Positions 3,722 through 47,551 of a stretch of DNA of 64,000 bases are shown here, piece after piece. The notes under the pieces were generated by a model. It had not been told where the DNA came from. It searched no databases and worked only from the letters and a program-made list of their open reading frames with translations. Each line of letters opens with the position of its first letter. Position 1 is the stretch's first letter. A program made the position numbers and the translations under genes. Source of the stretch: Sipunculus nudus (taxonomy: Eukaryota; Annelida; Sipuncula; Golfingiida; Sipunculidae); NCBI GenBank assembly GCA_026874595.1, contig CM049321.1:24787479-24851478 (forward strand). The letters are read 5' to 3'.

Positions 3722-3794
3722 GCCTCCGTGGCCCAATGGATAAGGCACCGGCCTCCTAAGCCGGGGATTGCGGGTTCGAGTCCCGTCGGAGGTG
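3722..3794 (+). tRNA. tRNA-Arg (anticodon CCT)
   Basis: A full cloverleaf folds by eye. The acceptor stem is GCCTCCG with CGGAGGT (one G-U pair), discriminator G at 3794. The D arm holds the A box TGGCCCAATGG. The anticodon stem CCGGC/GCCGG closes the 7-nt loop CTCCTAA, with anticodon CCT at 3755-3757. The variable loop is 5 nt (GGATT). The T arm GCGGG-TTCGAGT-CCCGT contains the B box GGTTCGAGTCC. It closely matches metazoan tRNA-Arg reading AGG. No intron is present, and CCA is not encoded, as usual in eukaryotes. Unlike the SINE heads elsewhere in the window, all stems are intact and there is no SINE body behind it, so it is called a real gene. Confidence 0.95.
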
Positions 3795-3808: not shown

Positions 3809-5725
3809 GTTTAACAAAAGCAACGTGGTACCATGGCAAACCTAACCAACGGCATAATGGACACTTTCGACATTTTGTACTGTTTCTTATTTTATAGATA
3901 TTTGCAAACAAGCAAGACGTTGTTTGTAAAAGACTTTTGGAACAATTACTACCAGTATTTGACTTGAGTACATTTTAGGATTCGAACCCAAATATGGTAT
4001 ATTGGAATTTTTTGTGGGCAAACTTCCTTTCGGATAAACAAATCTAGCACCTTCCTCAGACTTTGTTTTAGATGGGCCAGCTAGCACCTTACAGGAACAC
4101 TTTAACTAACAATGTCTTCATCTGTCATCGGATACGTTAATCAAATATGTTTATACGGGTTGGTCCGATATCAAGAAATATAAATATGTTTATATTCCTT
4201 GCTTGGGCTAATACCTGCTACTGACAGCTTTAACCCTACGTTTTTTTCAGAGCCAATCGATAAAATTGTGATATTTCAAGAGAGAGTATAAATGTTATAT
4301 ACGTGCATTCATCAGTTGTATCGTTAAGAGCACACTTATGTCTGCAAGAAAGGTGTGATCATGTCAAATCGTCACATTCTGTAAGGTTAACAGCCTAACG
4401 TGCAGAGCGGTCAGACATGGGAACCGTACTTTCCGGAAATGGCCAATTGCGGGGCTATTTTCTGAGACATCTGCATTAAGCGGGATCTACGGGGAAATAA
4501 ACTTAGGGGCGGGCTCGGCGGATATTACTGTCAAGAGAAACACGCACAGGGTAAAGTGGTCCTTCTTGGACGTTTGCGCAGAACAGAAATGGCGTTCTTG
4601 TGTCCGCCGGCTTGGGTCCATCCTAGTGGCATTTGTGGAATGATTTGCTGAATATAATAAGTTTTACTTACGCTTTCTGGTAGTACTTGAATATTACAAT
4701 CTTACCGTGAAACAGAAAAGTAGCGCTCGGATATAATATTTTGATATTTACGATAATGCGCTCCCTAAACTGCGGCTGTGCATTCAATCATACCAATCCC
4801 AGACTTTTCTCTTGTTCATAGATTAGCACTTAATTTAAATGTTAATATTTAATTACAATAAACAATACTTTATGGATTTAATTTTTTAAATCATGATGAT
4901 GAAAATAGTTTCCTTTAATTCACGAATGCCATAATTTAGGTATCAGAGAATAATAACTCAGTAAGCCTTCCAGCATGCTCCAACAGCAGGCAATACAAAA
5001 TAAAGGTTATATAAGTAATCGATATTTTAAATAGTGATTTAATTACAAATAATAAATTCTATAACTTTTCATGGATGTTTGCAAAATTGCTACATCTGGC
5101 TCACAGTAGATTTATTTATTCATTAAATGTCACATCCCTGGTGAGAATGTAAACGTCTCAAAGCACGATTAAGCAAACGAAATGTTTAATGAAATTAGAT
5201 TGGCACGACGCCAAGATAAACGATGACTTCCAAAGCCAAGAAATGGCGACAAAAGAAAATAAACGGCAATATTTTTCGCGTCTGCAATTAGCAAGAAAAG
5301 CGTTGCCATTCGACCTTCAGCTGGCGCGTAAAGATAGGAAAAAATGATGTATTCATTCATTTTAGATTTTATACCTGACAAATAAAGAGCCAACCTGTTT
5401 TCAGTTGTTACGGGCTAGGTGTACAATAAATGGAATAAGAAATCTCAGTCAGGTTCCGCAAAGTTTCGGTGTGGTCTGCGTCCGCAGTCTTCAGATAAGC
5501 TGTAAATACTTGGCTATTGACGCAGTTTCAAAAACTATTTATCTGTTCTTATATTCTTGTTTGCATGCATGTTTTAATACTCAGTGAAGTGCCTTATATT
5601 TAGGACTGTGTGAAGGTGACACACAACGAATATTCAGGGAAATAACGATCTTCTTACAATATTGCCCAGTTATATTCGTCAGTTTTAACTGTTAATCAAT
5701 TGAATGGATATCACTCGTTTTTGTG
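3809..5725. other. gene-free stretch with a GC-richer core
   Basis: Mostly AT-rich unique DNA. About 4430-4640 is richer in G+C (for example AAATGGCCAATTGCGGGGC and GGGCGGGCTCGGCGG) and could be regulatory, but no exon, inverted ends or RNA fold was recognised. Confidence 0.35.
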
Positions 5726-6104
5726 GGTCAGGGGTAGAGCGCCGGACTCAAAGTCGGGAGATCGTGAGTTCGAATCGCAGCCGAGGCCGTGAGATGTTTC
5801 ATAGTCGGCCCCTATCCAGGGTGAGCCCTCTGCAGGCTTAATGGGAAGGCCATGCCCAACGGCCGAGTTTTACTCACAAAGGAGAGCGCCCTTTTGGGGT
5901 TTCTCGGTGGAATGTCCCAGCGATTGGGACGTTTACACACCCAAGGGGCGCAAGTGTAGTAGTCACCGGGCCTGGTTAACACCAGGATATAAAATAAGAG
6001 AAAGCATGTGATACTGGACTGTCACGGAGTCCGAAACTGAAATTCTACAGATGTACATATACTTAGTTAAGCTAGCATTAAAAACGGAGGCGGTTACCTC
6101 CAGA
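5726..6104 (+). mobile_element. tRNA-derived SINE, family A, copy 1
   Basis: The head is tRNA-like: an A-box region GTGGGTCAGGGGTAGAGCGC, an anticodon-like loop CTCAAAG, and the B box GAGTTCGAATC. A body of about 300 bp follows, shared with the copy at 18722-19111, including TCTGCAGGCT, AGGCC(A/G)TGC(C/G)CAACGGCCG, CCTGGTT(A/G)AC(A/G)CCAGGATATAAAAT and a short 3' hairpin GGAGGCGGTTACCTCC. The bipartite tRNA head plus conserved body and 3' tail define a Pol III SINE mobilised by a LINE. It cannot be a functional tRNA because the anticodon stem is mismatched. Target duplications are not clear. Confidence 0.85.
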
Positions 6105-6585
6105 AAGAAAAATTAAGGAATATCATGACTTTCTTCGTGGACTTTCATGTCCTTCACCTCCTTATATTATTGTCAGTGCATAAGATATAATATTACCCCC
6201 CTGAATGTAATACTACTTGTATTACTACCTTGAACATGGTACACAAAACACCTATAACCGTGACATAAGCACTGAAAGAATGGAAGACTGTGTGACCGTT
6301 ATAGTAAAATTAACACAAGTATTACAGTTGCAGTAATAACAAGGTGACTATACAGTGTGCAGCGGCGCAACTAACCCAGCCCCCGGATATTAACCTGAAA
6401 TCTGCAAATGCTGGACAGCAGCATTACAATACAGTAACTGATTTTTTTTTTCATGAAATGGTATTGTGTATACAGTAAACGGTACATTTTCGTTATTATG
6501 AATTTGATTCTTTTCCAGTAGCAGGATCTTCTTTTTCGTTTAATCTGTTCAACAGAAAATTAAAATTAGTATTCCATGTTAACAA

Positions 6586-6750: not shown

Positions 6751-6773
6751 TTACTTGTATCTTTATTTTTCAG
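6751..6773 (+). promoter_or_regulatory. 3' splice acceptor of CCK/SK coding exon
   Basis: The pyrimidine-rich run ending CTTTATTTTTCAG lies directly before AACAAAAATG. It is a strong metazoan acceptor, so the coding exon would start at 6774 with only 7 nt of 5' UTR, and at least one upstream non-coding exon is implied. A purely intronless gene cannot be excluded from sequence alone. Confidence 0.75.
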
Positions 6774-6780
6774 AACAAAA

Positions 6781-7152
6781 ATGAAGAACCTTATCCTCGC
6801 AACGGCCACTGTACTCCTGGCTTACGTGGTGTATGCCTCCGCGGCGCCAGCAAGTGCAAACGGCAAAGATTCTTCCGCCGAAATGGCTATAATGGCACGC
6901 GTGGCAGAGCAGCTCCGACGCCTGTCTGTCGACGTCGATGTTTTCAACAAACTCGTCCAAACCATGAGTGACAGCTATTCTGGCGACAAGAAAAAACGAC
7001 AGGGCATGTGGGATATGGATTATGGACTTGGCGGAGGCCGATTTGGAAAGAGAGGTGACGCTAAGAAGAGATATGATATGTATAGTTTTGGTACCGGCCG
7101 ATTTGGACGCGATGTTGACCATGTGGACATCGAGCGCCATGCAAACAACTGA
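6781..7152 (+). CDS. CCK: cholecystokinin/sulfakinin-type neuropeptide precursor
   Basis: Complete 123-residue secreted prepropeptide in one exon. Residues 1-21 form a signal peptide (basic K2, hydrophobic core LILATATVLLAYVVY, AXA-type cleavage at ASA before AP). Residues 22-69 are a spacer with no recognisable peptide. KKKR (70-73) then releases QGMWDMDYGLGGGRF (74-88), followed by G89 as amide donor and KR (90-91). GDAKKR (92-97) precedes YDMYSFGTGRF (98-108), with amide donor G109 and monobasic R110. An acidic tail ends the protein. The GGGRF-amide and GTGRF-amide ends, N-terminal Gln (pyroglutamate) and Asp-Tyr before the core match the molluscan CCK/SK family, which acts on CCK-type GPCRs controlling feeding and digestion. 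The start codon follows the acceptor immediately and has A at -3. An overlapping minus-strand open frame is a shadow. Without a signal peptide and amidation sites a chance ORF would be plausible; with them it is not. Confidence 0.93.
   Translation: MKNLILATATVLLAYVVYASAAPASANGKDSSAEMAIMARVAEQLRRLSVDVDVFNKLVQTMSDSYSGDKKKRQGMWDMDYGLGGGRFGKRGDAKKRYDMYSFGTGRFGRDVDHVDIERHANN
7000..7044 (+). other. predicted mature peptide 1, pQGMWDMDYGLGGGRF-amide
   Basis: Residues 74-88, bounded by KKKR and GKR. Gln at the N-terminus can cyclise to pyroglutamate. Tyr81 follows Asp80 and is the candidate sulfation site. The Gly donates the C-terminal amide after KR removal. Confidence 0.88.
7072..7104 (+). other. 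predicted mature peptide 2, YDMYSFGTGRF-amide
   Basis: Residues 98-108, bounded by KKR and GR. C-terminal processing is at a single Arg (FGR then D), not a dibasic site. Two tyrosines (98, 101) sit near only one acidic residue (Asp99), so sulfation is less certain than in peptide 1. Confidence 0.82.
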
Positions 7153-7307: not shown

Positions 7308-7313
7308 AATAAA
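7308..7313 (+). promoter_or_regulatory. polyadenylation signal of CCK/SK
   Basis: Canonical AATAAA 156 nt after the stop codon, the first on this strand downstream of the CDS. It suggests a short 3' UTR ending near 7330. Confidence 0.6.
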
Positions 7314-15000: not shown

Positions 15001-15785
15001 GGTGTGGCGATTTCAGATTACCCCCCTTTCAGATTACCTGGGTGTAATCTGAAATCGATTTCAGATTACACCCGGTAACTTGAAACCGATTTCAGATTAC
15101 CCCCGGGGGTCATCTGAAATCGATTACAAGTTACCCCCTCCAATTTCAGATTCCCCCCCCCCCCTCCATACTTACTTATGATTATTTAAATACTTATCTT
15201 ATACATTAACTTAAGTAACCTGACAACGAAAACAACGACTACTACTACCACTACTATTTATAATAATAACAATAGTAAAATTAACGAAGATTATTATTAT
15301 TCAATTGTCATTATCCCTGCAGTACAGAGTTACAAAACATTTTCTCTCCGGTTAGATTATAAATACACCAAGTATAAATGAAACATGCAGTCTTGCACAT
15401 TAACTGGTTTGATAATTATATCCATAATTTAAATGTTATTTTTTGTGATCACAAAATACAACAACTGACAAGCACACTGTAGCTATCTTCCTGCCTGATT
15501 TAGTGAGGTCGGAAAAGTCAGACATTGGGTTTGTACCTGGAAGATGGTAGAAAGTTGATTTTGGTGTTAATTTTGAAACGATTACCTCTTTGGAAAGACA
15601 AAAAAAATGAAAACGCGGTAAAATTTGATCTGAGGAAATTTTGACGATTTTAAATGAAAAATTACGTAAACAAATCCGTATTTTGTCATAGTAGAGGACC
15701 TCCTACTGACACAAAAAGTTATTAATTATTTTTACAGCGGGGGGGGGGGGGGTGTTAACCTGGGAGGGGGAAACCTGAAGTCTTT
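15001..15785 (+). mobile_element. repeat element E, copy 1 (TTTCAGATTACCCC ends)
   Basis: The left 150 bp is built of alternating direct and inverted copies of TTTCAGATTACCCC, including a perfect 34-bp palindrome at 15040-15073 and C tracts. The middle is unique (AGTACAGAGTTACAAAACAT, TTCTCTCCGGTTAGATTATA, TCTTGCACATTAACTG) and recurs in reverse at 31040-31935. The right end is a G tract plus GTGTTAACCTGGGAGGGGG. It is probably a non-autonomous DNA transposon with terminal and subterminal inverted repeats. No coding capacity, and the superfamily is not assigned. Confidence 0.7.
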
Positions 15786-18721: not shown

Positions 18722-19111
18722 GCAAGGCCTCAGATTTTTAGCACAGGACTCAAAGCCGGGAATCATGAGTTCGATTCTCAGCCGAGGCGATAACATTTTT
18801 CACGGACGGCCCCCCACAAGGGTGGGCAATCTGCAGGCTAAATAAGAAGGCCGTGCGCAACGGCCGTGTTTCATTCACAAATGAGTGCGCCTTTCGGGGG
18901 TTCCTCGGTGGCATGACCCAGCAATGGGGACGATTGCCAATCCATGCCCGCAGGTGCAGTAGTCAAAGGGCCTGGTTGACGCCAGGATATAAAATGAGAG
19001 GAAGCCTCTGATACTGCCCTGTCACATAGTCCGAAACCGGAATGGAATTCTGCAGGTGTACATATAACGTAGTAAATGTAGCATTTAAAAAGGGAGGCGG
19101 TTACCTCCACA
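18722..19111 (+). mobile_element. tRNA-derived SINE, family A, copy 2
   Basis: Same block order as 5726-6104: anticodon-like ACTCAAAGCCGGG, B box GAGTTCGATTC, CAGCCGAGGC, TCTGCAGGCTAA, AAGGCCGTGCGCAACGGCCG, TTCCTCGGTGGCATG, CCTGGTTGACGCCAGGATAT, and the 3' hairpin GGAGGCGGTTACCTCC. The A box is more degraded than in copy 1. Confidence 0.85.
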
Positions 19112-19174
19112 CAAAAAAGTGCCAAAGGCAAACCGGGATAGTTTCGCTAGTTGACATTTGTATTCAGCTGAATT

Positions 19175-31039: not shown

Positions 31040-31935
31040 CTGACATCGATATCAGATTACCCCCCCCCCCCCCCGGGTTGCCTGAACCTGATTTCAGGTT
31101 AACACCCCCCCCCCCCCCCACACACACTTACTGTTCAGATTACTCCCTCGCTGATCAAGCTTATATGATTATTTTTTTCTGTAAGTAGGAGCTCACCGCT
31201 CCAGATATATTTATTAACATGATCCTCAGTTGACTGGTGATATAGTTGTCAGCTCAGTCGGGCTGTACATGTGTCTCTCTGTCCATAACCACTTCATTAC
31301 ACGAATTATCTCTGAAACATTACCGACATCCCATTTTAATTAACTTGGCATGTGTATCTTGATCCATGATTTCTTAAGATCGAATTATACCGGTTTTTTT
31401 TTTAATTTTGTCCTTCCAAAGATTTTAATCGTTTCGAAATTAACACCAAAATAAATTTTCTAACATTTTTTTCCATGTAAAAAAAACTAATGTCTGACCT
31501 CAAAGACCTCGCTAATTAAACCAGCCGGGAAGATAGTTGCAGTATGCTTGTCCGTTTCCGTATTTCGTGATCAAAAAAGACAACATTTAAATTATGGATG
31601 TAATTATCATAACAGTTAATGTGCAAGACTGCATGTTTCATTTATAGTTGGTGTTTTTATAATCTAACCGGAGAGAGAATGTTTTGTACCTGTTGTACTG
31701 CAGGGATAATGACAATTTAATAATAACCATCATCATCGGTAATTTTACTATTTTTATTATTATAAATAGTAGTAGAAGTAGTGGTTGTTGTTTTTTTTGT
31801 CAGGTTACTTAAGTTAATGTATAAGATAAGTATATAAATAACCATAAGTAAACATTTTTTTTGTTGGGGGGGGGGGCGGTAATCTGAAATGGGAGGGGGT
31901 AATCTAAAAGGGGGGTAATCTGAAATCGCTACACC
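31040..31935 (-). mobile_element. repeat element E, copy 2
   Basis: Inverse of 15001-15785. Its minus-strand start GGTGTAGCGATTTCAGATTA matches GGTGTGGCGATTTCAGATTA, and the unique middle (TCTCTCCGGTTAGATTATAA, CTTGCACATTAACTGT) and the end (G tract, GGGTGTTAACCTG) follow in the same order. Here the right end continues to a further TATCAGATTACCCC copy, giving a fuller set of terminal inverted repeats than copy 1. Confidence 0.7.
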
Positions 31936-44054: not shown

Positions 44055-44927
44055 TGTAACAGAGTACACACTTATACATATACAGGTCTAGGCGTACACT
44101 GATGTCCAGCCGTTAACTATTAGTTCTGGTCTCTCCGGTCTGATTGCGTAAGGGGCCACCCAGCCCAGCGTCTGCGCGATGGGGCTGATGGCGTCCCCTC
44201 GACCCCTGCTCAATATCCCATATGGATATATAGAGAGAGAGACAGAGTGTTTTCTGTAAAAGTATATTCTTCATTACCAACCAGGTCCTTATTTATATTT
44301 CTTAGAATAATAGAGTATCGGGTTGGTCTCTTTGTTCTCTGTATGTACATATATGCCATGATACCTTACCTTATTTAATTTTTACAATTATTAATCATTT
44401 TTCAGTTGATGAATTAAGATCCACATAGTATAATCTAAGTTTATTTCACATTACAAGTTAATTATAATTCGTGAATACGTCACAATTAGTATTACTGATA
44501 AAGTGTTGTGTGAGCTATCTAGCAAGGTATTATTTATTGTTCAGCGTAAAGTAGTCTTTGGATTATATCCATTTTAAGCGTTAAGAAGAAACACACTTTT
44601 ACTCTGACTGGACCAGATAGCGATATCAGCACCAGCCTTGCAACCCCTGTTTCGTTAAGGTCCTCACTCGGGCCTCTGGATGTAAAGTATACTGGGATGG
44701 CACTGAAAAGGTGTCAAGTCGGAAGGGTCAAGTCGGAAGGGTCAAGTCGGAAGGGTCAAGTCGGAGGTGTCAAGTCTCGAGTCTCCAGTAGCCTGCTGTT
44801 TCAATATATTTTTAGTGTGTATGGTGCGAACCTGTACGGCTTTGATATATATTGATTAAACATCGTCTTAACGTCTGCCTTGAGTTCGAGTTTGACGAGA
44901 GAACCTGCGAGTCAGCAACCCCTGACA
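44055..44927 (+). repeat. 5' LTR of nested retrotransposon
   Basis: Begins TGTAACAGAG, ends CCCCTGACA. Contains a 14-bp tandem repeat (GTCAAGTCGGAAGG) in 4.6 copies at 44713-44776. About 20 substitutions by eye separate it from the 3' LTR. Confidence 0.93.
44713..44776 (+). repeat. 14-bp minisatellite in 5' LTR
   Basis: Unit GTCAAGTCGGAAGG, 4.6 copies; the 3' LTR has 3.6 at 47347-47396. Confidence 0.95.
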
Positions 44928-46687: not shown

Positions 46688-47551
46688 TGTTACAGAGTAC
46701 ACACTTATACATATACAGGTCTAGACGTACACTGATGTCCAGCCGTTAACTATTAGTTCTTGTCTCTCCGGTCTGATTGCGTAAGGGGCCACCCAGCCCA
46801 GCGTCTGCGCGATGAGGCTGATGGCGTCCCCTCGACCCCTGCTCAATATCCCATATGGATATATATAGAGAGAGACAGAGTGTTTTCTGTAGAAGTATAT
46901 TCTTCATTAGCAACCAGGTCCTTATTTATATTTCTTAGAATAATAGAGTATCAGGTGGGTCTCTTTGTTCTCTGTATGTACATATATGCCATGATACCTT
47001 ACCTTATTTAATTTTTACAATTATTAATCATTTTTCAGTTGATGAATTAAGATCCACATAGTATAATCTAAGTTTATTTTACATTACAAGTTAATTATAA
47101 TTCGTGAATACGTCACAATTAGTATTACTGATAAAGTGTTGTGTGAGCTACCTAGCAAGGTATTATTTATTGTTCAGCGTATAGTAGTCTTTGGATCATA
47201 TCCATTTTAAGCGTTAAGAAGAAACACACTTTTACTCTGACTGGACCAGATAGCTATATCAGCACCAGCCTTGCAACCCCTGTTTCGTTAAGGTCCTCAC
47301 TCGGGCCTCTGGATGTATAAGTATACTGGGATGGCACTGAAAAGGTGTCAAGTCGGAAGGGTCAAGTCGGAAGGGTCAAGTCGGAAGGGTCAAGTCTCGA
47401 GTCTTCAGTAGCCTGCTGTTTCAATATATTTTTAATGTATGTGCATGGTGCGAACCTGTAAGGCTTTGATACATATTGATTAAACATCGTCTTAACGTCT
47501 GCCTTGAGTTCGAGTTTGACGAGAGAACCTGCGAGTCGGCAACCCCTGACA
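46688..47551 (+). repeat. 3' LTR of nested retrotransposon
   Basis: Begins TGTTACAGAG, ends CCCCTGACA; 864 bp. The 9-bp difference from the 5' LTR is accounted for by one fewer 14-bp unit and about 5 extra bases elsewhere. Confidence 0.93.

Follow-up and report, generated by a model that had tools for sequence, protein, structure and literature searches.

In a 64,000-base stretch of DNA (hereafter the window; C16:24787479-24851478, on a contig of 63.5 Mb), we identified an open reading frame (ORF) of 123 codons on the forward strand at 6781-7152, with its stop codon at 7150-7152, whose product is very probably a secreted cholecystokinin/sulfakinin (CCK/SK)-type neuropeptide precursor of a mollusc, found once in the assembly. 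This assignment is based on the ORF itself, its motifs, the similarity of its first peptide to known peptides, and a single match in the genome. The ORF encodes the two peptides, the likely signal peptide, and the predicted processing sites described in the first-pass annotation, and its product consists, in order, of a hydrophobic N-terminus, an intervening stretch, KKKR, peptide 1, G-KR, GDA, KKR, peptide 2, G-R, and a 13-residue tail.

The likely signal peptide MKNLILATATVLLAYVVYASA (6781-6843) was assigned from hydropathy, with a 12-residue maximum of 2.25 from residue 5 of the product, and from the -3,-1 rule; the cut after residue 21 was picked by eye, and cleavage after residues 14, 19, 22, 24, 26, 28, or 33 also fits the rule. 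A predicted prohormone convertase site, KKKR (6988-6999), precedes peptide 1, QGMWDMDYGLGGGRF (7000-7044), which was recognized by its motif and by comparison with bivalves and is predicted to mature as pQGMWDMDYGLGGGRF-amide. It is followed by a predicted amidation Gly with a KR cleavage site (7045-7053) and, after the GDA spacer, by a predicted KKR cleavage site (7063-7071) 5′ of peptide 2. The latter, predicted as YDMYSFGTGRF-amide (7072-7104) from its motif and from molluscan second peptides, is followed by a predicted amidation Gly and single Arg (7105-7110); the GR site previously proposed on its C-terminal side is therefore present, as a single Arg (G-R-D) and not as a dibasic site. Features of a CCK/SK precursor were thus found, comprising a signal peptide (by hydropathy and the -3,-1 rule only), basic cleavage sites, and amidation Gly. 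The 12 bases coding for GRFG are the same in both peptides and absent elsewhere in the window, and 20/30 bases are common to both peptide segments over ten aligned codons, the pattern to be expected had an internal duplication given rise to the two peptides.

The first-pass annotation had staked its assignment on homology to CCK/SK precursors, and such homology was found: peptide 1 is identical at 13/15 positions to its counterparts in oyster, Pinctada, and scallop and at 12/15 to that of Aplysia, the differences from those four lying at positions 3, 5, and 6. The published peptides are QGAWDYDYGLGGGRFa and FDYNFGGGRWa in oyster (PMC4200219), QGVWDFDYGLGGGRFa and SFGDYSLGGGRFa in Pinctada (PMC4200219), QGRWDLDYGLGGGRFa and EYDDYRLGGGRFa in scallop (PMC5996578), and QGAWSYDYGLGGGRFa and SYGDYGIGGGRFa in Aplysia (PMC12535377), while NYGEYGFGGGRFa of Haliotis is among others tabulated in PMC4208409. 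Oyster CCK2 is printed as pEFDYGGGRWamide in PMC6219549, unlike the FDYNFGGGRWa of PMC4200219, and in the plain text of the PMC4208409 table FDYNFGGGRWa and QGAWDYDYGLGGGRFa appear to be those of the gastropod Lottia. Peptide 1 fits the QGxW(D/S)xDYGLGGGRF-amide type and the published molluscan consensus X(1-6)(D/E)Y(G/N)(L/F/I)GGGR(F/W)-amide. CCK/SK peptides are generally described as having a Tyr with five to seven residues ahead of the C-terminal amide, and this gap is seven residues in both peptides of the window. Known molluscan members had also been described as ending in GGGRF or GGGRW amide, which held for peptide 1 (GGGRF) and failed for peptide 2 (GTGRF).

When the precursors were compared as a whole, Crassostrea gigas (Cragi-CCK1 and -CCK2; PMC6219549, PMC4200219) was found likewise to have one precursor, whose two amidated peptides are ordered as in the window, and the arrangement of a long peptide with N-terminal Gln before a shorter RF/RW-amide peptide matches that given for two oysters in PMC4200219. 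The N-terminal Gln and the key Tyr at position 8 are common to peptide 1 of C. gigas and of the window, whereas C. gigas has a further Tyr at position 6, where the window has Met and so retains one Tyr only; C. gigas peptide 2 ends in GGGRW, in contrast to GTGRF. Peptide 1 of the scallop Patinopecten yessoensis (PMC5996578) has, as in the window, a single Tyr and a hydrophobic residue at position 6, but its second peptide EYDDYRLGGGRFa is unlike YDMYSFGTGRF. The second peptide of Pinctada fucata, SFGDYSLGGGRFa (PMC4200219), has YS and GRF in common with peptide 2 of the window, which differs from it in having Met ahead of Tyr and GTG in place of GGG. The Aplysia apCCK precursor (PMC12535377) contains two RF-amide peptides with Tyr8, as in the window, although its peptide 1 has Ser5 and Tyr6 where the window has Asp5 and Met6. 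Given that both peptides end in RF-amide and that five RFamide genes are said to exist in molluscs, we considered whether another RFamide precursor (FMRFamide-related, LFRFamide, luqin, or NPF) might only resemble CCK/SK; however, peptides of the QGxW(D/S)xDYGLGGGRF type come from the CCK/SK gene in the molluscs compared, and the probability of this alternative is close to nil.

Placement of the CCK/SK-type precursor in Mollusca appears to follow from peptide 1 alone, which is off each of the three bivalve peptides at only 2/15 positions, in support of the mollusc-type assignment made earlier. Sulfakinin precursors are also reported in nemerteans, brachiopods, and phoronids, and our comparison covered molluscan peptides, so that a non-molluscan spiralian source had to be weighed. 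The haemocyanin (PF14830) and ELH (PF02323) profiles, which had no match in the genome and to that extent would agree with such a source, had no match in any control genome either and are therefore uninformative on phylum. Most bivalves are not known to have haemocyanin. With peptide 1 almost identical to the peptide of three bivalves, a non-molluscan spiralian source is very unlikely. Within Mollusca, a bivalve origin is weakly favoured because position 6 of peptide 1 is hydrophobic (Met) as in scallop (Leu) and Pinctada (Phe), oyster having Tyr there; one argument for a bivalve falls, since the PMC4208409 table appears to give Asp at position 5 for Lottia. The precursor is an ordinary member of a well-studied family of gut-brain hormone precursors and closely resembles those of oysters, scallops, and sea slugs. 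The literature searched did not contain the peptide strings specific to it, although papers outside that search may; the entry is thus either new for its species or already in print in another paper.

The COX1 profile (PF00115) was tried as a phylum marker and set aside: two of the matches examined look bacterial and one, on C5, is a short fragment, so that the phylum was not confirmed in this way. This search of the assembly gave 11 matches, nine of which (418.8-420.4 bits) lie on eight contigs (C60, C61, C62, C66, C72, C74, C75, and C89), four of these contigs measuring 57 kb, 2.17 Mb, 2.01 Mb, and 3.33 Mb. One of the nine copies adjoins ORFs that by eye resemble subunits II and III, and its top identity was 58% among the 80 GTDB matches listed. 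Several related bacteria of a poorly sampled group, perhaps symbionts, may have contributed genomes to the assembly. On the 112-kb contig C123 (7000-12000), ORFs resembling ccoN/ccoO of a cbb3 oxidase and an ORF resembling a 5′-nucleotidase (names assigned by eye) suggest another bacterial source, distinct from the first. The match at C5:67852325-67852477, within a 93-Mb contig, is a short stretch that resembles animal mitochondrial COX1 and contains one TGA; it probably represents mitochondrial DNA copied into the nucleus.

We then considered the gene model. The coding sequence was assigned to a single exon at 6781-7152 (+) on the basis of the ORF, its motifs, and its composition. The ORF starts seven bases past a pyrimidine-rich stretch that ends in CAG, which makes 6774 the probable start of the coding exon and would place a 5′ UTR exon farther upstream. 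This polypyrimidine tract with its AG, TATCTTTATTTTTCAG (6758-6773, +), is a likely splice acceptor directly 5′ of the coding exon, with an acceptor-like junction between TATCTTTATTTTTCAG and AACAAAAATG at 6773/6774. The first AATAAA poly(A) signal 3′ of the stop codon lies at 7308-7313 (+). From stop to stop the frame spans 138 codons, tied as the eighth longest in the window and by length alone unremarkable. GC content at codon positions 1/2/3 of the ORF was 0.59/0.42/0.53. By comparison, it was 0.235 for the 200-base upstream flank, part of which is a TA microsatellite, 0.335 for the 200-base downstream flank, and 0.364 for the whole window. When the precursor was searched against its own genome (1,426,538,692 bases in 153 contigs; E up to 10), the single match was itself, one candidate at first look. 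The divergence of peptide 2, in a gene known here from DNA alone, might point to a pseudogene or an unexpressed copy, but the ORF is intact, the processing sites are kept, an acceptor-like site and a poly(A) signal are present, codon-position GC is unlike that of the flanks, and no second copy was found in the genome search; we regard such a reading as extremely improbable.

As a control for chance, we searched 300 order-2 Markov windows for four diagnostic patterns, namely DYGLGGGRFG, [DE]Y[GN][LFI]GGGR[FW]G, GGGR[FW]G[KR], and a single frame holding two R[FW]G[KR] peptides that each follow a dibasic site. None of the patterns occurred in any of the 300 random windows, while the real window contained each one once, and the content of the ORF is therefore not due to chance. 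Profile and structure searches of the precursor gave no informative hit: the Pfam scan returned nothing over the cut-off (best COG6_N, 14.2 bits against 27.4, and DUF1690, 13 bits), comparison with the PDB gave three matches only, all with E of 1 or worse, and the Gastrin profile (PF00918) matched neither the precursor nor the genome, the genome search being without a match in the control genomes as well. A Pfam scan of 10 others among the 73 window ORFs of at least 85 residues, in which short exons would escape, likewise returned none over the cut-off. This result is compatible with the earlier claim that the CCK/SK precursor is the only confident protein-coding gene of the window.

Repeats and RNA genes were also observed elsewhere in the window. 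An element at 5700 to about 6111 has a tRNA-like head by eye, where ARAGORN predicted no tRNA; a copy is present at 18740-19118 (79%) and a reversed copy in the 10-kb flank that precedes the window, at 5955-6149 of that flank (72%). The element, which stops about 660 bases 5′ of the coding exon, is probably a tRNA-derived SINE. A tRNA-Arg(CCT) at 3722-3794 was the sole tRNA of the window and its sole Rfam match over the gathering score. The 14-base unit AAGGGTCAAGTCGG forms two separate arrays, at 44708-44776 and 47342-47396, with about 2.6 kb between them. Another array at 15027-15138 has the palindromic unit TTTCAGATTACCCCCGGGGGTAATCTGAAATCGA, and 17 kb past it an array at 31874-31926 has the unit GGGGGGTAATCTGAAATA, which resembles the second half of TTTCAGATTACCCCCGGGGGTAATCTGAAATCGA.

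By analogy with studied species, we infer the transcription, cleavage, modification, receptor, and effect of the peptides. The signal peptide would direct the precursor into the secretory pathway, where convertases would cleave at KKKR, GKR, KKR, and GR, exposed glycines would be converted to C-terminal amides, and the N-terminal Gln of peptide 1 would become pyroglutamate. Full or partial sulphation would occur on the Tyr that lies eight residues from the C-terminus. As ligands of CCK/SK-type G-protein-coupled receptors, the peptides would slow gut movement and reduce feeding, effects that have been reported for the oyster hindgut and Aplysia. According to PMC6219549, oyster peptide 1 occurs with 0, 1, and 2 sulphates, activates two CCK receptors, and lowers the frequency of hindgut contraction; sulphation of Tyr8 makes it more potent at both receptors (90- and 50-fold), whereas the form sulphated on Tyr6 only has lower potency at one of them and no activity at the other. 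In Aplysia, PMC12535377 reports that food intake is cut by forms sulphated on the C-terminal-side Tyr and not by unsulphated forms or those with only the other Tyr sulphated. Peptide 1 of the window keeps Tyr8, eight residues from the C-terminus, where sulphation boosts potency in oyster (PMC6219549). Since Met replaces Tyr6 and Tyr8 is kept, only two forms of peptide 1 would be expected, one without sulphate and one with a single sulphate. The calculated [M+H]+ values of these amidated forms, with N-terminal pyroglutamate, are 1671.70 and 1751.66; for amidated peptide 2 they are 1342.59 without sulphate, 1422.55 with one, and 1502.50 with two.

In peptide 2, MYSFGTGRF departs from the published molluscan consensus [DE]Y[GN][LFI]GGGR[FW] at three positions: Met, not an acidic residue, stands ahead of the Tyr at -8, and GTG replaces GGG. 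It nevertheless keeps that Tyr and matches 5-6 of the last 8 residues in five molluscan second peptides. The second peptides of Pinctada (DYSL; PMC4200219) and scallop (DYRL; PMC5996578) also break the consensus, at one position each, and the consensus therefore does not define membership. In oyster, sulphated peptide 2 acts on one receptor only, with an EC50 of 5x10^-5 M (PMC6219549), and because of this weak activity peptide 2 of the window may have a lesser or altered role as a ligand. The replacement of the acidic residue by Met and of GGG by GTG would leave only peptide 1 to carry the conserved signal, and we tentatively raise the possibility, which we consider rather doubtful, that the second CCK/SK peptide of this lineage is losing or changing its original role. 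If so, peptide 1 would signal with one sulphation site, and peptide 2 might act at another receptor or nowhere.

The precursor extends the molluscan CCK/SK set by one species and represents no new type of system. As a natural variant in which peptide 1 has one Tyr only and peptide 2 is strongly changed, it would help to test which residues molluscan CCK receptors need.
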